NCBI RefSeq assembly: GCF_031501865.1
Contig: NZ_JARRCW010000001.1
Coordinates: 3,744,501 to 3,808,500 of the forward strand
Direction of reading: 5' to 3'
Source: Pseudovibrio sp. M1P-2-3
GTDB taxonomy: Bacteria; Pseudomonadota; Alphaproteobacteria; Rhizobiales; Stappiaceae
Length of the DNA: 64,000 bases
The position numbers were made by a program, and so were the translations under genes. The notes beneath the pieces are model-generated. The model saw only the letters and a program-made list of their open reading frames with translations. It ran no database searches and was not told where the DNA came from. Positions 12,095-22,082 of the stretch are shown one piece after another (position 1 is the first letter of the stretch; each line of letters starts with the position of its first letter).

Positions 12095-12379
12095 CTACCC
12101 AAACACGATTTGTAGATTTGCCTTATTTTTACAACCCATGACTTTTGAGATAAAAACCGAGTGATTTCCAGTTTTGTCATGGCAGAGAGCTAGGGTGTCA
12201 TGTTCGCCCACGAAGTCATCCGGGCATTCAAACAACAGCGAAAATTGCTCCCTGAACTCAGCTGGGGTCTCTGGCCCCACATTCACCTCGGAAAGTTTGG
12301 CCTGATGATGCCCAATAGTGAAAACCTCACCAACCAGACCTTCAAAGTCCTTATGTTCCAGTTCTTTCATTGTCTTCAT
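12095..12379 (-). CDS. DUF6916-like protein
   Basis: A 94-aa protein with the pattern HKDFEGLVGEVFTI, then L-EV-V-P, REQFSLLFECP and a C-terminal VFISKVMGC. This fits DUF6916, small proteins encoded beside tail-collar (MdpB-like) genes, where the usual FSL-F-G and FL-P blocks are found. Function unknown. The start is set at the second in-frame ATG because GGAGG lies 5 nt before it; the longest frame adds four codons. It is the last gene of a minus-strand cluster after GNAT and three tail-collar genes. Confidence 0.6.
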   Translation of the reverse strand: MKTMKELEHKDFEGLVGEVFTIGHHQAKLSEVNVGPETPAEFREQFSLLFECPDDFVGEHDTLALCHDKTGNHSVFISKVMGCKNKANLQIVFG

Positions 12380-12480
12380 AACAGCCTCCATAAGATTGCT
12401 CTTTTAAACGATGCCCAGAAACCGGAACTGCGACTTCATCAGGCTCTTTCAAATGACTTTCGTCTCAAAATCCGTCTTCA

Positions 12481-13050
12481 TTAAGCGCCGTATTGCTGCA
12501 TTCGCCGGATTGTTACTTCAGGTGGAATAACGTGCCCGTTTACAAACTGCTCATAGCTTGGGTGAAACCAGCGCATTAAAATATGACGATGGTTATTGCT
12601 CTCGATTTCAAACCCTAACCTGTAGTAAAAACGATAGGCGGCAGCATTCAGTGAATGCACATGCAAGGACACGGGCACTTGTTTGCGCGCTGCAGTTGCG
12701 CAAACGCCGTGCATCACTATGGAGCCAATTCCCTCTCCGCGAAAATGCGGTAAAAGAGCAATATCCAAAACCCTGAATTCTTGGTCTCTTTCATCCAGGT
12801 AAAGGCGACCGACCGGCTTCCCACAAAGTAAAATTATTCCATACTTCGCAACGGTATAACAATTAAAATACACGTCATGATGGGCATCATACTGCTGAGC
12901 AACCACCCTATGATAATTCTCGTCATCTCCAGCATAGAGAAGGGGGGCGAACTCCCAAAACCTCTCAGTTTCATGAACTCGTTTCAAAAATGCTTCATCC
13001 CCGGCTCGGGCCGGTCTGATCTTTACGTCCAAGGAGTTAACTTCTGTCAT
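12481..13050 (-). CDS. GNAT N-acetyltransferase of tail-collar cluster
   Basis: A 189-aa acetyltransferase. The acetyl-CoA loop region is DIALLPHFRGEGIGSIVM (about residues 103-120, RGEGIG), followed by VSLHVHSLNAAAYRFYYRLGF, the typical N-x-A---Y---GF ending. Substrate unknown. The ATG at 13050 is chosen because GGAAGG precedes it; the longer frame begins with a GTG that would overlap this ribosome site. GNAT enzymes of this type recur beside MdpB-like and DUF6916 genes, suggesting a shared function. Confidence 0.82.
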   Translation of the reverse strand: MTEVNSLDVKIRPARAGDEAFLKRVHETERFWEFAPLLYAGDDENYHRVVAQQYDAHHDVYFNCYTVAKYGIILLCGKPVGRLYLDERDQEFRVLDIALLPHFRGEGIGSIVMHGVCATAARKQVPVSLHVHSLNAAAYRFYYRLGFEIESNNHRHILMRWFHPSYEQFVNGHVIPPEVTIRRMQQYGA

Positions 13051-13085
13051 CCCATACCTTCCCACTCATATTTTTGAAAAGGCCT

Positions 13086-13628
13086 TCATCCAGATCGTGA
13101 AGGGTAGTCGCCTTTAAGCGCAATTTCATAGCTCATGCACATAAAAGGGTCCATGACTGAGAAGTTGCGACCATACCCAGCGCTAACTGTTCGACTTCCG
13201 CTGTTTGCTAAAGTAACCGCATTGCTGTCCGGTCGCACATAACCATCACCAACAATGTCTCCAACTTTAGGACTAGCAAGTGTCATGGAAGGCCCAGGGT
13301 CTTCAGATCCATCATTTTGGGTAGCGCCGAAAAACAAGTTGCTGTGGGTATGGGCTGGCAAGTTTCCAACAACCAGAGTTTGAGTCTCTATTCCGGCTTT
13401 TTGCCCCAGAAAGTATGTTCCATTGGTATTGCGCTGAACCGCGACACGGCCCCGCATTTCTGGCAGACCAAAGCTCGAAATGCCATTTCCACCAAACGTG
13501 GTCCCCACCAGCGAAAATAGGGCTACATTTTGGGAGACTGCGATCAGTTGACCATCACAATATGCCCAATCTCGGACTGCAAAAAACAAAGGAAAAATGG
13601 AAATTTGAGAAATATAGGGTTCGGACAT
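13086..13628 (-). CDS. tail-collar domain protein (MdpB-like), copy 1
   Basis: A 180-aa protein beginning MSEPYISQISIFPLFFAVRDWAYCDGQ, the signature N-terminus of the phage tail collar / microcystin-dependent protein family. It continues with the ALFSL-G-T-FGGNG and FGLPEMRGR blocks, NLPAHTHS, and a conserved ending MSYEIALKGDYPSR. Such proteins form trimeric fibre-like collars in phages; chromosomal relatives outside prophages have no established role. The inner ATG has GGAGACAGGAA just upstream. Third gene of three tandem paralogues in transcription order. Confidence 0.88.
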   Translation of the reverse strand: MSEPYISQISIFPLFFAVRDWAYCDGQLIAVSQNVALFSLVGTTFGGNGISSFGLPEMRGRVAVQRNTNGTYFLGQKAGIETQTLVVGNLPAHTHSNLFFGATQNDGSEDPGPSMTLASPKVGDIVGDGYVRPDSNAVTLANSGSRTVSAGYGRNFSVMDPFMCMSYEIALKGDYPSRSG

Positions 13629-13702
13629 TTCCTGTCTCCAGTGGGGTAAAACACTCTTTCCCGGTGTCAACGTGACTGAACATGCTGATAAGGGGGGAAC
13701 CG

Positions 13703-14263
13703 CTAGCTACGCGAAGGATATATTCCAATCAAAGCTATTTCGTAAGTGATAACCTGATAGGGTGAGATTGTTGGTATTGGAAAACTGCTTCCTTTGACCG
13801 AAGTACTTGGAGAGCCTTGCGAAGACAGATCAGTGAGGTTTGACGCGGCGGCATACCAATCTGCAGTTATAGGTAAACCAGAAAAAGTACCTTCTGGAAT
13901 AGCCGTGATGGTATCAGCAGTTGGAACAAGATCCGTTCCCGAATATGGTTGCGCCTTTTGCCGAATGATATGGGCATGAGACGGCAACTCGCGTATCGTA
14001 AGCACTTGATCACGCTGGCTATTAAAGCTCCCTATTGGGTACACACCCAAGCCTGGTCCTTGCCCAGAGTGTAACACTGTACGCCCTATCAAGTTTGGGA
14101 CCCCAAAGGACACTCTTCCATCCCCACCATAAACATTGGATATAAGTGAAAATAGCATCTCATTTTGGCTAATCGCCATAATCTGCCCTTGGCACCGGGC
14201 CCAGTTTCTGATTGTAAACTCAAGGCCAAATGCGGAAACTTGAGAAATAAAGGGTTCTGCCAT
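13703..14263 (-). CDS. tail-collar domain protein (MdpB-like), copy 2
   Basis: A 186-aa paralogue of its neighbours, beginning MAEPFISQVSAFGLEFTIRN with WARCQGQIMAIS, LFSLISNVYGGDGRVSFGVPNL and ELPSHAHI, and ending VITYEIALIGIYPSR. The middle (about residues 95-150) is the variable part, as expected for a collar protein's distal domain. The inner ATG is used because GGAG lies 6 nt before it. About 47 bp from copy 3 and 74 bp from copy 1; likely one operon. Confidence 0.88.
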   Translation of the reverse strand: MAEPFISQVSAFGLEFTIRNWARCQGQIMAISQNEMLFSLISNVYGGDGRVSFGVPNLIGRTVLHSGQGPGLGVYPIGSFNSQRDQVLTIRELPSHAHIIRQKAQPYSGTDLVPTADTITAIPEGTFSGLPITADWYAAASNLTDLSSQGSPSTSVKGSSFPIPTISPYQVITYEIALIGIYPSRS

Positions 14264-14310
14264 AATATGCTCCATGAAAAATATGGGAATGCGCGGGAAA
14301 GCCGGTAACC

Positions 14311-14859
14311 TTAATCCCGTGCCGGGTAATATCCCTCAAGAGCGATTTCGTAGGTCACAGACAGATATGGACTGCGTACTGAAAAAGGAAGATTGCCCCC
14401 TATACTCTCGGTATTATCCACCCCAGTACTTATAAGCGCATTTACTCCCGAACTGTCCGAGAATGAGCTGCCAGTTGCGGTGCCACCTGAAGTCGTAACA
14501 GCAGGCTTTGCCATAACAACATTTGAACTAGGCCCGCCTGTACCAGATGCATTTGCGACCGTCAAAATAGTACCAGGATGACTGTGTTGCGGCATAGTTG
14601 CATCATTCAAAGTTACTGTTTCGACGCCGCCAACGGCTCCGCATTTCTCTCCTGAATACCCCGGTCCAAACGCCATACGCCCTTTCAAGTTGGGAAAGCC
14701 AAACGTCGAACGGCCATCTCCACCATACCTGTCTGCAAGTAGAGAGAAAAGTGCCGTATTTTGAGATATTGCAATGACCTGACCATCACAAAAAGCCCAA
14801 CCTTCCACAGCGAAACTCAAGCCCCATAATGAAATTTGCGAAATAAACGGTTGTCCCAT
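14311..14859 (-). CDS. tail-collar domain protein (MdpB-like), copy 3
   Basis: A 182-aa paralogue beginning MGQPFISQISLWGLSFAVEG, with WAFCDGQVIAISQN, YGGDGRSTFGFPNLKGR and MPQHSHPG, ending VTYEIALEGYYPARD. It is the first gene of the operon, with AAGAGG 5 nt before ATG. The central part is rich in Gly, Ser and Thr. All three copies share ends and differ in the middle, which suggests duplication followed by diversification. The surrounding genes are not phage structural or lysis genes. Confidence 0.88.
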   Translation of the reverse strand: MGQPFISQISLWGLSFAVEGWAFCDGQVIAISQNTALFSLLADRYGGDGRSTFGFPNLKGRMAFGPGYSGEKCGAVGGVETVTLNDATMPQHSHPGTILTVANASGTGGPSSNVVMAKPAVTTSGGTATGSSFSDSSGVNALISTGVDNTESIGGNLPFSVRSPYLSVTYEIALEGYYPARD

Positions 14860-14997: not shown

Positions 14998-15250
14998 AGA
15001 ATGGACACGGGATGTTTGTAGGCCGCGCCTGTAGGGTACTTGTAGGCACCCGGATATCGACCCCCACCTTTAGATTGTTACGATTACAATTAACAACTTA
15101 TAGTTGATGATAATGTTGCGCTATCCTTGCAATTTTCTAATTGAAAACAATGTGAGATATTACAGCAACTACAATTCCTAGAACTTGTTTACAAATAGGT
15201 TTCACAAACCCAGTGATTTGTGATTCAGGGTAGTTTTTAAGGAAACTATC

Positions 15251-15643
15251 TTGGCACGGCAATTGATGAGTGATGATGAATGGGCGTTCTTTGAGCCGTT
15301 TTTAACTGCAATACGGGGACGGGGTGGCCGAAAACCTAAGGATCACCGCCGTGTTCTTGACGGGATATTCTGGATTGCCCGTACGGGCGCACAATGGCGC
15401 GACTTACCCCAAGAGTTTGGCAAGTGGATCAGTGTTTATCAGCAATTTCGCCGTTGGAACCAAGCAGGTCTTTGGGAATTAATCCTGTCAGTTCTTAATG
15501 ATAGCAGTTCTGCTCCCACGAGTGTCCATATGATTGATAGCACTATCATCCGTGCTCATCAGCAGGCTGCGGGCGCAAAAGGGGGACTCAAAAACAGGGT
15601 TTTGGCCGTTCAAAAGGTGGCTTTACGACGAAAGTCCACCTGA
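15251..15643 (+). CDS. IS5-family transposase, frame A (N-terminal part)
   Basis: Encodes the N-terminal 130 residues (SDDEWAFFEPFL, ARTGAQWRDLP, MIDSTIIRAHQ with the first catalytic Asp). Conservation then leaves this frame around CTCAAAAACAGG near 15588-15600 and continues in the -1 frame. Either a programmed -1 shift on the A-run (CAAAAAC) or a mutation. The start is a TTG; a downstream ATG (codon 6) is possible. Confidence 0.8.
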   Translation: MARQLMSDDEWAFFEPFLTAIRGRGGRKPKDHRRVLDGIFWIARTGAQWRDLPQEFGKWISVYQQFRRWNQAGLWELILSVLNDSSSAPTSVHMIDSTIIRAHQQAAGAKGGLKNRVLAVQKVALRRKST

Positions 15644-16002
15644 TCTCCAATATTATGGGACTGCCGGTACGTCTTGAGGTTTCTGGCGGTGAAGTCTCCG
15701 ATTACAAAGGATATGATCTCCTATATGACGGGGATGGACCTACCGCCAAGGTCCTGATCGCTGATCGTATTCGCGAAGATTGCCAAGCAAATGGTGGAGC
15801 AACGGTAATCCCCGGACGCCGGAACCGTAAGGCCTCTATAGAAATTGATAGCTTCATCTACGCTTTTAGAAATCAAGTCGAACGATGCTTCAACAAGCTT
15901 AAAACAGCAAGGCGGGTGGCTACTCGCTACGACAAAACAGCTTGTAGCTACTTGGGTTTCTTACACATTGCTGCTGTCAGGCTATGGTTCCGAAGTATGT
16001 AA
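15595..16002 (+). pseudogene. IS5-family transposase, frame B with internal deletion
   Basis: In the shifted frame the sequence reads QGFGRSKGGFTTKVHLISN and then GLPVRLEVSGGEVSDYKGYDLL, the conserved C-terminal half. The block normally reading ADRGYDADF-IRE is here ADRIRE, missing about six residues next to the second catalytic acid. The RNQVERCFNKLKTARR segment with the catalytic Glu is intact. The in-frame loss suggests an inactive transposase even if the frameshift is productive. Confidence 0.7.
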
Positions 16003-16106
16003 ACAGGTCCTAAGTCATGTCTCTAGCCTGTCCATTTTGGTCAAGCGGATTTTTCCTCTTATTGCCAATCCGCATTTATGAGTGATTACGCCTCAAGATT
16101 TCGCCC

Positions 16107-17381
16107 TCAGCGTTTCGCTACATGTACGAGAAGAGGGCGATCGGGGTAAAGGCAAACGCCTGCCTCCAGCCCCATAGCAGTAGCACCGTCTATTGAAATT
16201 GGCGTTAGTTGGATATGCTTCAAGATAACGGACATGACCTGTACCATCTCTTCTTGTGCGATCGCCGCACCAAGACAGCCATAGGGGCCACCTGAAAATG
16301 GAATAAATGCACCTCGAGGAACATTCATACTTCCAAGAAATCGCTCAGGTTGGAAACTGTCTGGATCCTGCCAATATCTGAGACTGCGATGCAACGCGTA
16401 GATGGAGATAATCAGCAAAGCTCCTGCCTCGATTTCATCGTCTCCTATGCTCAACGGCACTGTAGCATCACGCATTGTTTCAGTACCAGGCGGGAACAAA
16501 CGCATAGTTTCATTAATTACCGCAATGAGTAAAGGGTCTTTTGCGGGCTTCTCGCTGGTAACAATATTATTAAAAAGCTTTTCCTGATACGCTGGAAAGC
16601 GTGTCATCAGCCACAAACACCATGCCAGTGTAATACCGGTTGTTACATGCCCCGAAGCTGCTAAAACCGTTGCATTTGCTTCAACTTCTTCTTTGCTAAG
16701 CCCACCGCTATGGGCTTCGGAAGAACCCATAATAGTCGAAAATGGATTATCTGGCGGCAAGCTTTTCCAGCGACCACTTGAAATCAAATACTTGGTAAGT
16801 TGTCGAATAATTTTGGCATTTCCAATAAAGTTCGCTTTATGAGCCTTAGAAAGTTGCTGAGTAACGTCTGTTATAAGTGATTCTCGCCCCTGATATTTTC
16901 CCGTTCCAAAGAGCGTTGCCCAAGCGACTTGTAGTGTGAGCTCTGACATTTCCATGCTCAGGTTTATCACGCCTTGTCGCAGCCAGCGCGTGATTGCATC
17001 TTTTGTTGCCTCTGCAGCGACCGAGTGAATGGAGTGTTTCAGAACTGAGCTAAACAAAGGGCGGATGGCACGCCTTTGCTTGGAGTTCTGTGCTCCTGGC
17101 GTTCCACTTAGTCCTTGCCCCAAAGCTGCGAAAGCTACCTTGCGCTGGACTTCCGCTTTAGGAAAGGCGTAGGGGCTTCGAAATAAAGTAAGTTCCGCAG
17201 CAGCTGCATCTGCGATCAATGCAATTTTCCGACCTTTAATTTTCCTGGTAATGACCGGCGTTTCTAGCAGTTCCGATGGTCGTGTGTGTGCACGAAAACG
17301 CATAATCTGGGAAAGGCTTCCCCAGTTTATGCGATCAGCTGACAGGAAAGACATTCTAGGAACTGGGGTCACAGCACTCAA
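16107..17381 (-). CDS. cytochrome P450
   Basis: A 424-aa soluble P450. The heme loop is PFSGGPYGCLG (361-371, Cys369 as thiolate ligand), the K-helix ExxR is NETMR (290-294) and the PERF block is at 345-348. The I-helix reads AASGHVTTG (241-249), where the usual acidic residue of AGx(D/E)T is replaced by Val, so proton delivery may rely on the substrate or another residue. The start is a TTG overlapping the radical SAM stop (TTGA) with GGAGG 7 nt upstream. Last gene of the carbamoyltransferase operon, and a candidate tailoring hydroxylase. No redox partner is encoded nearby. Confidence 0.9.
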   Translation of the reverse strand: MSAVTPVPRMSFLSADRINWGSLSQIMRFRAHTRPSELLETPVITRKIKGRKIALIADAAAAELTLFRSPYAFPKAEVQRKVAFAALGQGLSGTPGAQNSKQRRAIRPLFSSVLKHSIHSVAAEATKDAITRWLRQGVINLSMEMSELTLQVAWATLFGTGKYQGRESLITDVTQQLSKAHKANFIGNAKIIRQLTKYLISSGRWKSLPPDNPFSTIMGSSEAHSGGLSKEEVEANATVLAASGHVTTGITLAWCLWLMTRFPAYQEKLFNNIVTSEKPAKDPLLIAVINETMRLFPPGTETMRDATVPLSIGDDEIEAGALLIISIYALHRSLRYWQDPDSFQPERFLGSMNVPRGAFIPFSGGPYGCLGAAIAQEEMVQVMSVILKHIQLTPISIDGATAMGLEAGVCLYPDRPLLVHVAKR

Positions 17382-18556
17382 CTGGTGGCCTCCTCCAAAA
17401 TTGGATTATCTTTTTCTTCAGGTTGGCCTTTCTTTACCAAAGGATTTTCATAAAGGAAGATACGACCCAACGTATCCATGGTATCCAACCAGCCCTTAAA
17501 CGCAGAAATACTCTCCAGATCTTCAGGTTTTGGAACAAAGCGTGAGGACCATCCACCGGAATAGAGCCGACAATAGCGACAATCCACGTCAGGTGTGCAG
17601 CACTTTACCTTCATGGGCTGATGGTCCGTCCCAAAGTAGCGCATAGGCTCCACGATTCGAGAACCACAGCCCTCTGCTACTCCCGTTTGCGGATTAACGA
17701 CATGTGGGGCACGCGCAGCACTCATCATCTTGTTATAGCCGCGGTCATATACAACCACATCAGGAAACTTCTCGATGGCCTCTCCAATAGTCTCTTTCAT
17801 GCGGCACAGGTCGCTAAGACCAAGTTGCGGGTTGTCCTGAAGTGTACTAACCCTGAAAAATGCCTGATCATTGACTTGCATTGAGCCCAGCTTGCGCAAG
17901 TAGCTTTGGGTTGGCGAATAAATATTGAATGTGAGCGGCAGACCATGTTCACGACATAAATGGGCAACATGTGGAATTTGATCTATTGTCCAACGTGATA
18001 CCGTTAGAAGAATAATCGCCCGAGGATCACCAGCATAGTTTCGGAGTGCTTTGGGAAAAGCCCCTGATCCTCGCAGCAGCCTATCCGTTTTTTCATCTGC
18101 TGCCCAGACAGACACCCCGATCCGATAAGGCACTTCCGAAGGGATCTTTACAGTTCCATTACTTCCAATATTTCCATAGGGAAAACACTTCGCTGCTGAA
18201 AGAAGACGCTTGGGCTCCAATGCGGGTTCCGCACCCACAAAGTAGGCCATGGAAACACCGCGCCGCTGTTCACTTTTGAAAAAACGGCCCCACTCCGTAT
18301 CATCTCTTCGCGCATCTTGAACCGCCTCTCCCCCCCCTTCAAAATAGTAGCAGCCTTCACATTTGAGGTTGCACCGCGTCGAGGTTTCGTAAAAGGCCGG
18401 GCGGCGGAAAGCACGAACGACTTTTTTCGCAGTCCTATACCGAGTGTTTAGCTGTGGAGTTACTTTAAGAAGGTGACCAATGCGCTTTGCGACCCATTTT
18501 TTATAGGCAGGGCTACGAAAACTCGCAAAATTATCCGTTGGAGAGACAGTATTCAT
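17378..18556 (-). CDS. radical SAM enzyme with C-terminal cysteine cluster
   Basis: A 392-aa protein. The radical SAM motif CNLKCEGC has Cys62, Cys66 and Cys69, and VGAEP (about 113-117) stands for the GGEP SAM-binding block. Near the C-terminus are CGSRIVEP, KVKCCTPDVDCRYC (about 290-335), a group of at least five cysteines suggesting an auxiliary iron-sulfur cluster as in SPASM/twitch proteins. The reaction is not predictable. It lies 18 bp after the TPR-acyltransferase gene and overlaps the P450 start. No short peptide gene lies in the operon, so peptide modification is not supported. Confidence 0.85.
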   Translation of the reverse strand: MNTVSPTDNFASFRSPAYKKWVAKRIGHLLKVTPQLNTRYRTAKKVVRAFRRPAFYETSTRCNLKCEGCYYFEGGGEAVQDARRDDTEWGRFFKSEQRRGVSMAYFVGAEPALEPKRLLSAAKCFPYGNIGSNGTVKIPSEVPYRIGVSVWAADEKTDRLLRGSGAFPKALRNYAGDPRAIILLTVSRWTIDQIPHVAHLCREHGLPLTFNIYSPTQSYLRKLGSMQVNDQAFFRVSTLQDNPQLGLSDLCRMKETIGEAIEKFPDVVVYDRGYNKMMSAARAPHVVNPQTGVAEGCGSRIVEPMRYFGTDHQPMKVKCCTPDVDCRYCRLYSGGWSSRFVPKPEDLESISAFKGWLDTMDTLGRIFLYENPLVKKGQPEEKDNPILEEATS

Positions 18557-18574
18557 AAAACCCCTTCGGTTTAA

Positions 18575-20074
18575 TTAGTTTGGGTAGGCACCTAATGCCC
18601 TTGCCCAGAATTTACGAGAATAAATGAAGTTCTTTGGTCCTCGACATAGGTGCCTCTCAAGCTTTGAAACAAAGCAACGTGCCCATTCGGTTGTTGCTGA
18701 AGCAGAGTCTCTTAATTGGCCGGAGATAGCTATCTCTTCGATTTCAATGTTAATTTTTTCTCCATGCCAATAGGCTTGGCACCAGATTGTTGGAATCCCG
18801 TAGGTAACTGACAAACGGGCTGGTAGGTCCCATACTTTTAAAGAACCTCGTAAAAAATCGACTTCGACACTTGAGCTTGATGAAAAGCCATCACAAGCTA
18901 TACCCAAAACACAGTTCTGTTGCAGTGCGTCCAGGAGCGAACGCAACTGCATCTTAGACTTCCCGCCCAATATAATAGATGTCGCCGAAGCGGGCCGTAT
19001 GGATGATTGCGGCCGATGCGAAACTGAAAGGATTCGCTCGTCCCCCACTCGCTTGAATTTAGGGAAATGCCGTTCCAGAAACCAACAAGCTGCCATGTTC
19101 GGTCCATGGTGGGATGTTACCAACATGCATCCCTTGCCTTTTGCCAATGCTGTCTCAATCACACTCAGATCCGGCTGACAAAATAGTTCTTGCATGTCTT
19201 CCGCATCATCTGGCAAATTAAAAAATGTATGCGCTGCAAGTCTTCCAGCCGCTATACCCCAAGCCATCTCCTGTTCATAGGTGCGGGCACTCGTCTCTTT
19301 TGAGCACAATAGCGCTTGAATACTACGGCAAAGAACTTTGGTTGTTTCGGGTATGGCCGGAACCTCATTGAGACGGGTCCGAAATTCCACTGCAGTTCTA
19401 CACTCCCCCTCCTGCTGCCGTGCTTGCTTATATTTGGATATTGCCTGTTGTTCTTCTTTTTCCAAGTTGAAATGGCGAAGGCACTCTAGATAAAAGGAAA
19501 TATAGATCCTGTCTGCGGGAGATTCTTTGAACCATTCGGCACTTCTAGTAAGCGACTTTTGCGTTAAGGGGAGCACTCTATTTAAGCGTATATAGATACG
19601 TCGCAGGATAACGTCAGAGGGGTGACTTTCCAACGCCCTCTCAATTTTGAGTTCCACATCATCATATTCTCCCAACAATAGCAAGCTGCTTAACTCTGTC
19701 CGGAGGCCTAGTAAGTTCTCGGGATCTTTTGTTAAAAGCTGCCTGGAAAACTCAGCAGCCTTCCTATAATCTCCAAGCGCATTATAAAGCAGAGCGAGTT
19801 GGCGGAGCAATTTTTCTTTCTCTGGCCAGCTTTTAAGCGCTCTCTTTGCAAGGGCAAGAGCCTCCACATACTCACCTAGGGCTTGTTGTGCTCTAACAAG
19901 CCCTAGTGTCGCTGCCAAGTTATTGGGATTTACCTCCCTCAGCTCGGAAAAAAGGCGTGCAGCTCTTGAATAGTTGCCAGTTTTTTGAGCGTCCCGAGCC
20001 TTTTGCCGGAGTTCTTTAAGTTTGGCAAAGCTTGGGCGTTTATCTATTTTCCCTCCAGTTTCTAGATTATCCAT
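18575..20074 (-). CDS. TPR repeat / LpxL-like acyltransferase fusion
   Basis: A 499-aa protein. Residues 20-170 contain about four TPR-like helical pairs (NYSRAARLFSELREVNPNN, EYVEALALAKRAL, DYRKAAEFSRQLL). Residues 255-495 resemble the LpxL/HtrB lipid acyltransferase family: MLVTSHHGPNMAACWF (317-332), CDGF and VDFLRGS (394-411), LPARLSVTYGIPTI (417-430). The family's H-x4-(D/E) dyad is not intact, as the position of the acid is Met. There is no N-terminal membrane helix. It overlaps the carbamoyltransferase stop by 8 bp, with GGAGGAGG before ATG. Likely transfers an acyl group to, or binds, a product of this cluster. Confidence 0.8.
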   Translation of the reverse strand: MDNLETGGKIDKRPSFAKLKELRQKARDAQKTGNYSRAARLFSELREVNPNNLAATLGLVRAQQALGEYVEALALAKRALKSWPEKEKLLRQLALLYNALGDYRKAAEFSRQLLTKDPENLLGLRTELSSLLLLGEYDDVELKIERALESHPSDVILRRIYIRLNRVLPLTQKSLTRSAEWFKESPADRIYISFYLECLRHFNLEKEEQQAISKYKQARQQEGECRTAVEFRTRLNEVPAIPETTKVLCRSIQALLCSKETSARTYEQEMAWGIAAGRLAAHTFFNLPDDAEDMQELFCQPDLSVIETALAKGKGCMLVTSHHGPNMAACWFLERHFPKFKRVGDERILSVSHRPQSSIRPASATSIILGGKSKMQLRSLLDALQQNCVLGIACDGFSSSSSVEVDFLRGSLKVWDLPARLSVTYGIPTIWCQAYWHGEKINIEIEEIAISGQLRDSASATTEWARCFVSKLERHLCRGPKNFIYSRKFWARALGAYPN

Positions 20075-22082
20075 CCGCCTCCTCCAAGTGGTTCAGAAAA
20101 CTATCCGATCTGTTTGAATCCTCCGGTAAGGAGCTAATATTTGTGCCGCCTAAGTCATGGAATAGATCTATAAACTGAAAATCCACTCGTTTTGAAAACT
20201 GCGCCCTGATCCTTCTAAGAAGTTTGCGAAGTTTCGGTTGCTCCTGAGGGTCTTGATGGTCAAAAGTCCGCAAGCGTGGATTTTGCTGCTTTAGGACCAG
20301 CTCTTCCCGGCTAAAGCCAAGCGGATTAACGCGTTTCCTCTCTTGCTCCAAATCAAGTTTCGGAGAGGGCTGAAAACTTCTTGTACTTGACGTCCTTTCA
20401 CGTCCTTTAAGATAGGCACTGTAGTTAGTCAGCTCCAATCGAACCCCGTCGGCATAAACAACACGCAACCTTTTCTTTAAAGCAAAAACAATGGCTGCCT
20501 CAACGCTGTTCAGGATCGGCTCAGCACGATCATTGAGTGAGGTATTGCAAAGCATGGGTACACCAGTACGCGTATAAAAAGCCTCAATCGCCTGATAGAG
20601 TTCCAAATTCTGATCGCCCGTGAGTGTTTGCGCCCGAGCAGTCCCATTTAAGTGACAGATTGCCGGAACTCTGTGCCTTTTCTCTGGCTTCACAGTAAAT
20701 GCTTGGAGCATGTATGGGGATGGGAATGAGTTTTCAAACCAGTCGTTCATACAGCTCTCCAAAATGATTGGAGCAACTGGACGCCACCACTGCCGTTGTT
20801 TGATCCGGTTTAAAATCTCCCTACTTTTTTCAAATCGCGGATCCGCCAAAAGCGAGCGATGCCCAAGGGCGCGCGGGCCGACTTCACCTTGCCCTTGAAA
20901 CCACACCAGCGGCTCAGCAAGAAGATCCTCGGCGAATTGACTTGTTGTAAATTGAGACGTGCTTTCAATAAACTGGTCGTATTCTCCGCCCTTTAATAAC
21001 TCCTCTACAGTTGCTCCCTGCATTGAGCCCAAATATGGAGATGACAACTTGAATTGAAAGTCTTTGTTATCCTTATAAAACCGTAGCAGGCCCAACCCCA
21101 TAGAAAGCCCGGAATCGTTAACGCAAGGCGGTGCGAGAAACCCCTTAAAACCGAATTCATTCATCAAGTAAGTATTGGCAGGACAGTTCAGGGCCGCTCC
21201 GCCTGCCATTGCCAGATAACATTCACGAGCATTCACATTATGGGCGACAAGAGCATTTTCGATAGTCTGTTTCAACTCCATTTCGGTATAAGTCTGGACC
21301 AGTTTTGTCATCATCGCTGCCCTGCTTTCAGCTGGCGTAAAGCGTGTGTCAAAGTGGACTTCGTTCTTTGCAGAGCAAAGACGATCTAGGTCCACTAGTG
21401 TCGATTTGAACCAACTGTCGGCCTGAATAGAATCTGAAATTGTATAAATGGGCGGAGGGGGAGTATTTGCAGGTATAACTTTCCCGTTGCACGCTCCTGC
21501 AAGTGCCATCAAACTCCCTTCTTTCAAGCCAAAATGCATGCGTAGAAATGCCCAAAGGGGTGCTGCAGACGGAACAGAGAAAAGTGAGATTTCACCCTGT
21601 TTGGTCACAGCCCCTGTATAATAGTTCTTTTGGCGGCATTCGGTATCTTCAAGATTGTCCGGCCCACCATCAACAGCAAGAGCCACAATACACTCGGTGT
21701 CAAAAATTCGTTTGTTGACCATGAGCGCACTAAACAGGTGAGCGAGATTATGCTGCGGAAATTCTCCGTAACCGCTCCAATAATCCACTGGGCTGGTATT
21801 AAGGCCCGGGGTGCCCCAAATGTCTTTAATCTGTGAAAGATTTATGCCGAGCGGTTGAAGACGCTCTTGCAAAAAGCACTCAAAATGACGCCGGTCATAG
21901 AAGGGCTGCATGTGATGTTTCTGGCCCGAAAACCGCTCCAGCTCCCAGACCTGAACCAGATCAATGGCTTTACCCTTTTTATGCCACAAGCTGATACTAT
22001 GGTCATGACGTAGAGCAATATCATAAAGATACTCCAGATTTCCAACATGACTATAAACCGAAATATAGTAGCCGTTCTCCAC
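20067..22082 (-). CDS. carbamoyltransferase, NodU/CmcH family
   Basis: A 671-aa protein. The N-terminal Kae1-like domain has a metal-binding HNLAH (His111, His115), followed by ALAVDGGPDN and AMAGGAALNCPAN (291-303). The C-terminal domain has GQGEVGPRALGHRSLLADPR (397-416) and CNTSLNDRAEPI (512-523), the family signatures. These enzymes transfer carbamoyl from carbamoyl phosphate via carbamoyl-adenylate to a hydroxyl of a natural product or Nod factor. About 110 residues extend beyond the catalytic part (560-671), with no recognised domain. Start GTG, with GAGGAG 9 nt upstream. First gene of the coupled four-gene operon. Confidence 0.92.
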   Translation of the reverse strand: MENGYYISVYSHVGNLEYLYDIALRHDHSISLWHKKGKAIDLVQVWELERFSGQKHHMQPFYDRRHFECFLQERLQPLGINLSQIKDIWGTPGLNTSPVDYWSGYGEFPQHNLAHLFSALMVNKRIFDTECIVALAVDGGPDNLEDTECRQKNYYTGAVTKQGEISLFSVPSAAPLWAFLRMHFGLKEGSLMALAGACNGKVIPANTPPPPIYTISDSIQADSWFKSTLVDLDRLCSAKNEVHFDTRFTPAESRAAMMTKLVQTYTEMELKQTIENALVAHNVNARECYLAMAGGAALNCPANTYLMNEFGFKGFLAPPCVNDSGLSMGLGLLRFYKDNKDFQFKLSSPYLGSMQGATVEELLKGGEYDQFIESTSQFTTSQFAEDLLAEPLVWFQGQGEVGPRALGHRSLLADPRFEKSREILNRIKQRQWWRPVAPIILESCMNDWFENSFPSPYMLQAFTVKPEKRHRVPAICHLNGTARAQTLTGDQNLELYQAIEAFYTRTGVPMLCNTSLNDRAEPILNSVEAAIVFALKKRLRVVYADGVRLELTNYSAYLKGRERTSSTRSFQPSPKLDLEQERKRVNPLGFSREELVLKQQNPRLRTFDHQDPQEQPKLRKLLRRIRAQFSKRVDFQFIDLFHDLGGTNISSLPEDSNRSDSFLNHLEEADG

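Follow-up and report, generated by a model that had tools for sequence, protein, structure and literature searches.

We describe a four-gene operon of Pseudovibrio sp. M1P-2-3 that lies at 16107-22082 of a 64,000-nucleotide stretch of contig NZ_JARRCW010000001.1 (positions 3,744,501 to 3,808,500), hereafter called the window. The four genes form one inherited unit, their products belong to recognisable enzyme families and the catalytic residues are intact. Our leading interpretation, in which our confidence is about even, is that this is a horizontally transferred operon making a small, acylated, O-carbamoylated molecule by an undescribed tailoring pathway. The genes, in the order of transcription, are as follows.

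20067-22082, minus strand: Cmt, O-carbamoyltransferase of the NodU/TobZ/CmcH type and first gene of the operon; 671 amino acids (aa), GTG start with AGGAG upstream; PF16861 and PF02543.
18575-20074, minus strand: TPR-LPLAT, VexE-like acyltransferase; 499 aa; TPR repeats and PF03279.
17378-18556, minus strand: rSAM, radical SAM enzyme with auxiliary-cluster cysteines, SPASM/twitch-like; 392 aa; recognised by cysteine motifs, SkfB profile match and fold.
16107-17381, minus strand: cytochrome P450; 424 aa, TTG start; PF00067, 3.6e-44.

Cmt and TPR-LPLAT overlap by 8 bp, TPR-LPLAT and rSAM are 18 bp apart, and rSAM and P450 overlap by 4 bp (TTGA); the coordinates reproduce exactly the genes, strand and spacing given by an earlier reading made from the sequence only. 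Its claim that the genes are co-translated is plausible given the overlaps. Promoter and terminator scans returned site numbers no higher than in shuffled sequence and were uninformative on internal promoters either way. As that reading had stated, no polyketide, peptide synthetase or precursor gene was recognised within or beside the operon. The boundary that it drew proved too narrow, because the locus extends to a block of collar, GNAT and DUF6916 genes at 12095-14859, described below. Searching nine proteins against the PADLOC anti-phage defence models at 1e-5 gave no match.

The inheritance of the genes was then examined across genomes. Scanning 84,980 species genomes by a pattern-based method that detects close relatives only yielded 31 loci. 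With tblastn, the enzyme set was found jointly in Pseudovibrio, Leisingera, Stappia, Amphritea and Oceanobacter, spanning Alpha- and Gammaproteobacteria. The order Cmt-TPR-rSAM-P450 was observed in P. exalbescens and the order rSAM-P450-Cmt-TPR in Leisingera, Amphritea and Oceanobacter; Stappia carries TPR-rSAM-P450 with Cmt opposed. The sequence-only reading had proposed co-occurrence in distant genomes as a check on a single pathway, and the set indeed recurred together in shuffled orders rather than as homologues that never co-occur. Furthermore, the distances between the proteins covary: after regression on RecA, the partial correlation was 0.82 for rSAM-P450, 0.77 for P450-LPLAT and 0.68 for rSAM-LPLAT (9-12 genomes; p = 0.0002 for each). 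Correlation with RecA distance was weak for rSAM and P450 (0.08-0.33) and 0.48-0.51 for LPLAT. Recurrence and covariation together bear out one co-inherited unit, which apparently moves by horizontal transfer.

The composition of the unit varies. TPR-LPLAT lies near rSAM in 19 alpha- and gammaproteobacterial loci and a P450 follows rSAM in 16, directly in all of these except one in Marinobacterium, where an open reading frame (ORF) of a methyltransferase family intervenes (15/16). Cmt was found in eight loci and the methyltransferase family in four others. Hence, the core of most loci is rSAM, P450 and TPR-LPLAT, and Cmt is one among interchangeable tailoring enzymes; a methyltransferase or an MBOAT protein replaces partners in other loci, as in tailoring sets. 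The unit is rare, occurring in about 1-6% of the sampled genomes: rSAM was found in 3/385 genomes of the class (at E<1e-60), 5/87 of the host's family and 4/296 of Leisingera's family. The Cmt subfamily (E<=1e-60) was likewise found in 3/385 class genomes, and two of these three genes lie beside rSAM. One further locus (L098:4169-11629, genome G040) has an MBOAT gene and a gene for a 332-aa protein with no Pfam match preceding Cmt, with a divergent rSAM-P450 pair; TPR-LPLAT was not found there, and the distance to a group of three collar genes is about 7 kb. A polyprenyl synthetase gene adjoining the Amphritea locus was set aside as probable housekeeping. No recurrence was found of a TPR/methyltransferase protein encoded upstream of one P. 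exalbescens locus (L003). The open-licence literature yielded no paper on this gene combination.

Subsequently, the individual proteins were analysed. Cmt matched PF16861 at 3.3e-52 (176.9 bits; cut-off 27) and PF02543 at 2.4e-5 (24.3 bits), just over the cut-off of 24. Its closest PDB structures are the carbamoyltransferases 7xb6, TobZ and GdmN. The motifs RHD, KHH, HxxxH, DGxPD, NDSG, E(V/I/M)GPRALGxRSLL, WWRPVAP and NTSLND are conserved across seven aligned sequences, and Cmt retains, as judged from the alignment, the metal-site His/Asp residues and the carbamoyl-adenylate motifs (HxxxH, NDSG and GPRALGxRSLL). Cmt thus resembles TobZ, NodU, CmcH and GdmN in its C-terminal domain and N-terminal metal-site motifs, but its N-terminal domain has diverged (24 bits) and its score with the NodU equivalog NF041651 fell far short (144.3 bits against a cut-off of 1000). 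NodU carbamoylates N-acetylglucosamine (GlcNAc). An identity like that of the Nod-factor system was rejected on this score; among the genes adjoining the operon, none of NodABC type was recognised. The closest plasmid relatives of Cmt (40-42%) are Streptomyces genes adjoining a gene for a cupin-annotated protein (L109 and L111). In L109 this neighbour carries a JmjC domain, and YcaO and TfuA genes also lie near in one of the two loci.

The acyltransferase scored 23 bits with PF03279 (cut-off 22.3) in addition to its TPR repeats, and the NCBIfam VexE model NF011721 aligned across both of its domains at 41.7 bits; identity with VexE proper was rejected, the cut-off being 1200 bits. In the predicted structure (pLDDT 85.7), the C-terminal half matched PatA (Z 21, 236 residues) and LpxM (Z 20). 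Across 18 TPR-LPLAT sequences, H322 and D/E395 are invariant and residue 327, the position of the acid of the HX4D/E motif, is never acidic; the sequence H322-x-G-P is retained, except that P325 is Ala in one homologue. In VexE, Tyr replaces the HX4D/E acid, His466 and Asp532 are required for activity, the donor is acyl-acyl carrier protein (acyl-ACP) and the acceptor is C-6 of UDP-GlcNAc (PMC9597891). The spacing from His to Asp is 73 residues here and 66 in VexE, and D395 is equated with D532 of VexE by spacing and conservation, not by a residue-level structural alignment. Judged by sequence and model, the protein is VexE-like: a predicted TPR superhelix joined to an LPLAT domain with the PatA/LpxM fold, with a putative catalytic His and a distant Asp and with the HX4D/E acid lost. 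Because the active-site pattern is that of VexE, acyl-ACP is predicted as the donor by analogy, and since the enzyme is specifically VexE-like, acylation stands more firmly than the "perhaps" with which it had been proposed. The difference from VexE is that the enzyme adjoins a radical SAM enzyme and a P450; no Vi polymerase or export genes were recognised among the window ORFs examined, a part of those in the window.

rSAM had no Pfam match up to 0.001 and did not reach the radical SAM or SPASM models. It was recognised by its CX3CX2C motif (C62, C66 and C69), a weak match to the NCBIfam ScmE model, a profile match to SkfB (8e-11) and its fold. These three cysteines and C319, C326 and C329 are invariant in 18 sequences, in agreement with the cysteine pattern of SPASM/twitch enzymes. 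The top Foldseek matches were SkfB, anSME and SuiB, and BlsE and DesII also appeared among the profile and fold relatives; with relatives of such kinds, the fold gives no substrate class. rSAM shares the CX3CX2C cluster, the extra C-terminal cysteines and the fold with SkfB, SuiB and ScmE, but differs from them in matching no Pfam model and in an identity of about 13% along the matched fold, and no precursor peptide was found. For the P450, the best NCBIfam model was that of ApyO (NF050147) at 142 bits, and an ApyO-type identity was rejected, the cut-off being 525 bits. ApyO is the P450 of aminopyruvatide biosynthesis (PMC11117315). It is the nearest curated P450 model; the MNIO, B12-radical SAM partner and YLY precursor of that system were not recognised here, and the I-helix acid is absent. 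The I-helix reads SGHVTT, and in the heme loop (FSGGPYGCLG) the alignment places Tyr at the heme-propionate Arg/His. Across homologues the position of the I-helix acid is V, A, T, K or E. The HVTT sequence and the heme-loop Tyr, replacements seen in this clade of P450s, hint at unusual chemistry and prove nothing.

Relatives of rSAM were also found in distant contexts. A Methylomagnum plasmid (L110:8401-17193) encodes an ACP, a TauD dioxygenase, an rSAM relative (35%) and a C-A-T nonribosomal peptide synthetase with sulfotransferase and TPR domains. Tandem pairs of the same rSAM family occur in nine Desulfobacterota loci (L022 and L024-L031), and L022 contains in addition ketosynthases, ACP-like proteins, a polysaccharide-deacetylase-like protein and a B12-radical SAM protein. 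In a Burkholderia region, an rSAM relative at 24% is accompanied by a chlorinating enzyme and carrier proteins. The distant contexts favour a biosynthetic role on carrier-bound or small substrates.

For the acylated, carbamoylated molecule we infer the following order of steps, with the ACP-bound donor taken from VexE. rSAM would activate a C-H bond of a core or carrier-bound precursor, and the P450 would oxidise it further, possibly supplying a hydroxyl. Using H322 and D395, the VexE-like enzyme would then acylate an acceptor hydroxyl with a fatty acid, the donor probably being acyl-ACP. From carbamoyl phosphate and ATP, Cmt would form carbamoyl-adenylate, whose carbamoyl group it would pass to another hydroxyl. 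Because no assembly line is encoded, the scaffold is likely to be a cytosolic metabolite, such as a sugar nucleotide, an amino acid or a carrier-bound acyl chain. The sequence-only reading, which suggested a carbamoylated and perhaps acylated product, is thus supported in part: catalytic residues are retained for both modifications, and such a product is probable. Its restriction to four genes does not stand, since in relatives the operon runs on into collar, GNAT and DUF6916 genes.

Behind the enzymes, the window contains an insertion sequence and the collar block.

15180-16011, plus strand: IS5-like element, 832 bp; terminal inverted repeats AGAACTTGTTTACA / AGGACCTGTTTACA.
15251-15643 and 15655-16002, plus strand: IS5-like transposase ORFs, split over two frames.
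14311-14859, minus strand: tail-collar protein 1; PF07484, 1.8e-21, 76.3 bits, over the cut-off; orthologues at 61-70%.
13703-14275, minus strand: tail-collar protein 2; PHROG tail protein; orthologues at 60-67%.
13086-13670, minus strand: tail-collar protein 3; PHROG tail protein; orthologues at 59-70%.
12481-13065, minus strand: GNAT N-acetyltransferase-like protein; PF00583, 3.6e-11; orthologues at 68-78% in the equivalent position.
12095-12391, minus strand: DUF6916 protein; PF21880, 1.8e-15; orthologues at 60-71% in the equivalent position.

The orthologues are those of two P. exalbescens loci (L003 and L007) and a Leisingera locus (L004), in which the three collar genes, GNAT and DUF6916 lie about 280-315 bp behind the operon on the same strand. 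The inserted element, which we take to be IS5-like, occupies the gap between operon and collar block and is absent from this junction in those three loci; it may uncouple the transcription of the collar genes from that of the enzymes. Its inverted ends (AGRACYTGTTTACA) were missed by the inverted-repeat finder, and a pattern drawn from the ends by eye matched, with a chance expectation that is not independent. Between the window and Leisingera, the collar, GNAT and DUF6916 proteins are 67-78% identical, rSAM 60%, P450 and Cmt about 40% and RecA roughly 71%. A second, divergent locus of the same genome (L034:9719-14885; G000:C1, about 2.967-2.972 Mb) holds an rSAM paralogue (34%), a TPR-LPLAT of 601 aa, one collar gene (PF07484, 89.5 bits), GNAT and DUF6916 in a rearranged order within 6 kb, without P450 or Cmt; on one side of it lies a hut-like cluster for histidine degradation and on the other a set of ABC transporter genes. 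A single ancestral joining may underlie both the Pseudovibrio and the Leisingera loci, so that the collar association may represent two, at most three, independent events. Collar and GNAT cassettes, some with DUF6916, are common in the host's family (20 loci: L076-L093, L100 and L101); their GNAT proteins are 30-40% and their collar proteins 39-50% identical to those of the window, but the enzyme operon is absent from them. Both of the cassettes whose surroundings were read (L076 and L077) adjoin very long repetitive ORFs that are beta-helix-like. The open-licence literature searched offered no function for collar cassettes of bacteria. The collar block is, in sum, a recurrent partner of the enzymes and not a required one.

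Several points weigh against a small acylated and carbamoylated molecule. The operon encodes neither a scaffold-forming enzyme nor a carrier protein or exporter; the covariation of Cmt comes from 5-6 loci with p of 0.02-0.09 after RecA correction; the nearest solved relatives of rSAM (SkfB and SuiB) are peptide-acting, as is ApyO, the nearest model for the P450; and a diffusible metabolite leaves the recurrent collar, GNAT and DUF6916 block unexplained. The peptide-modifying relatives of rSAM and the collar block bear on a protein-modifying system, in which the radical SAM, P450, acyl- and carbamoyl-transferring enzymes would modify the downstream tail-collar proteins, to be displayed or secreted as decorated fibres. 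We consider this unlikely, and slightly more so in the specific form in which all four enzyme types decorate the phage-derived collar proteins of their own locus with unprecedented modifications to yield surface or secreted fibres. The block does stand directly behind the enzymes on the same strand in P. exalbescens and Leisingera despite their differing enzyme orders, the second copy L034 again joins rSAM, TPR-LPLAT, collar, GNAT and DUF6916, and in family f1 all four GNATs of at least 50% identity adjoin rSAM. However, three rSAM genomes (Pelagimonas, Acuticoccus and one Nioella) yielded no collar protein, many other genomes have no collar gene near rSAM, the 20 cassettes without enzymes show the converse, and the enzyme-linked collar proteins have no distinctive residue or core motif by eye.

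The peptide-acting relatives also bear on a pathway for a ribosomally synthesised and post-translationally modified peptide (RiPP) whose precursor, nearby or elsewhere in the genome, has escaped recognition, and the YcaO and TfuA genes near a Cmt relative in Streptomyces point the same way. We regard this, too, as unlikely: the ApyO score is far under its cut-off, a TPR-LPLAT is unusual among RiPP enzymes, and the gap that follows the enzymes showed no common small ORF when the window, L003, L004 and L007 were compared. An all-against-all comparison of small ORFs from 22 loci returned mostly out-of-frame GC-rich matches and near-identical locus pairs and was not used as evidence. Decoration of a surface glycolipid or polysaccharide, in which a VexE-like acylated sugar would be carbamoylated, methylated or acetylated after the manner of Nod factors or Vi antigen, appears improbable. 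It is consistent with the GlcNAc-type acceptors of NodU and VexE given above and with the MBOAT protein adjoining Cmt in one genome, but none of the operon neighbours examined was recognised as a gene for a glycosyltransferase, a capsule exporter or sugar-nucleotide metabolism, and the Vi and Nod pathways have no role for a radical SAM enzyme or a P450. Chance proximity of four unrelated neighbours is hardly credible, being refuted by the shuffled-order recurrence and the RecA-independent covariation, and nothing was found in its favour.

If either the small-molecule or the protein-modifying interpretation holds, the locus would represent an undescribed class of natural-product, or else protein-modifying, cluster that is common to distant and mostly marine genera and built around a radical SAM family without any Pfam match. 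VexE-type TPR acyltransferases would gain a setting outside capsule assembly, and tail-collar proteins would be placed in a definite enzymatic context.

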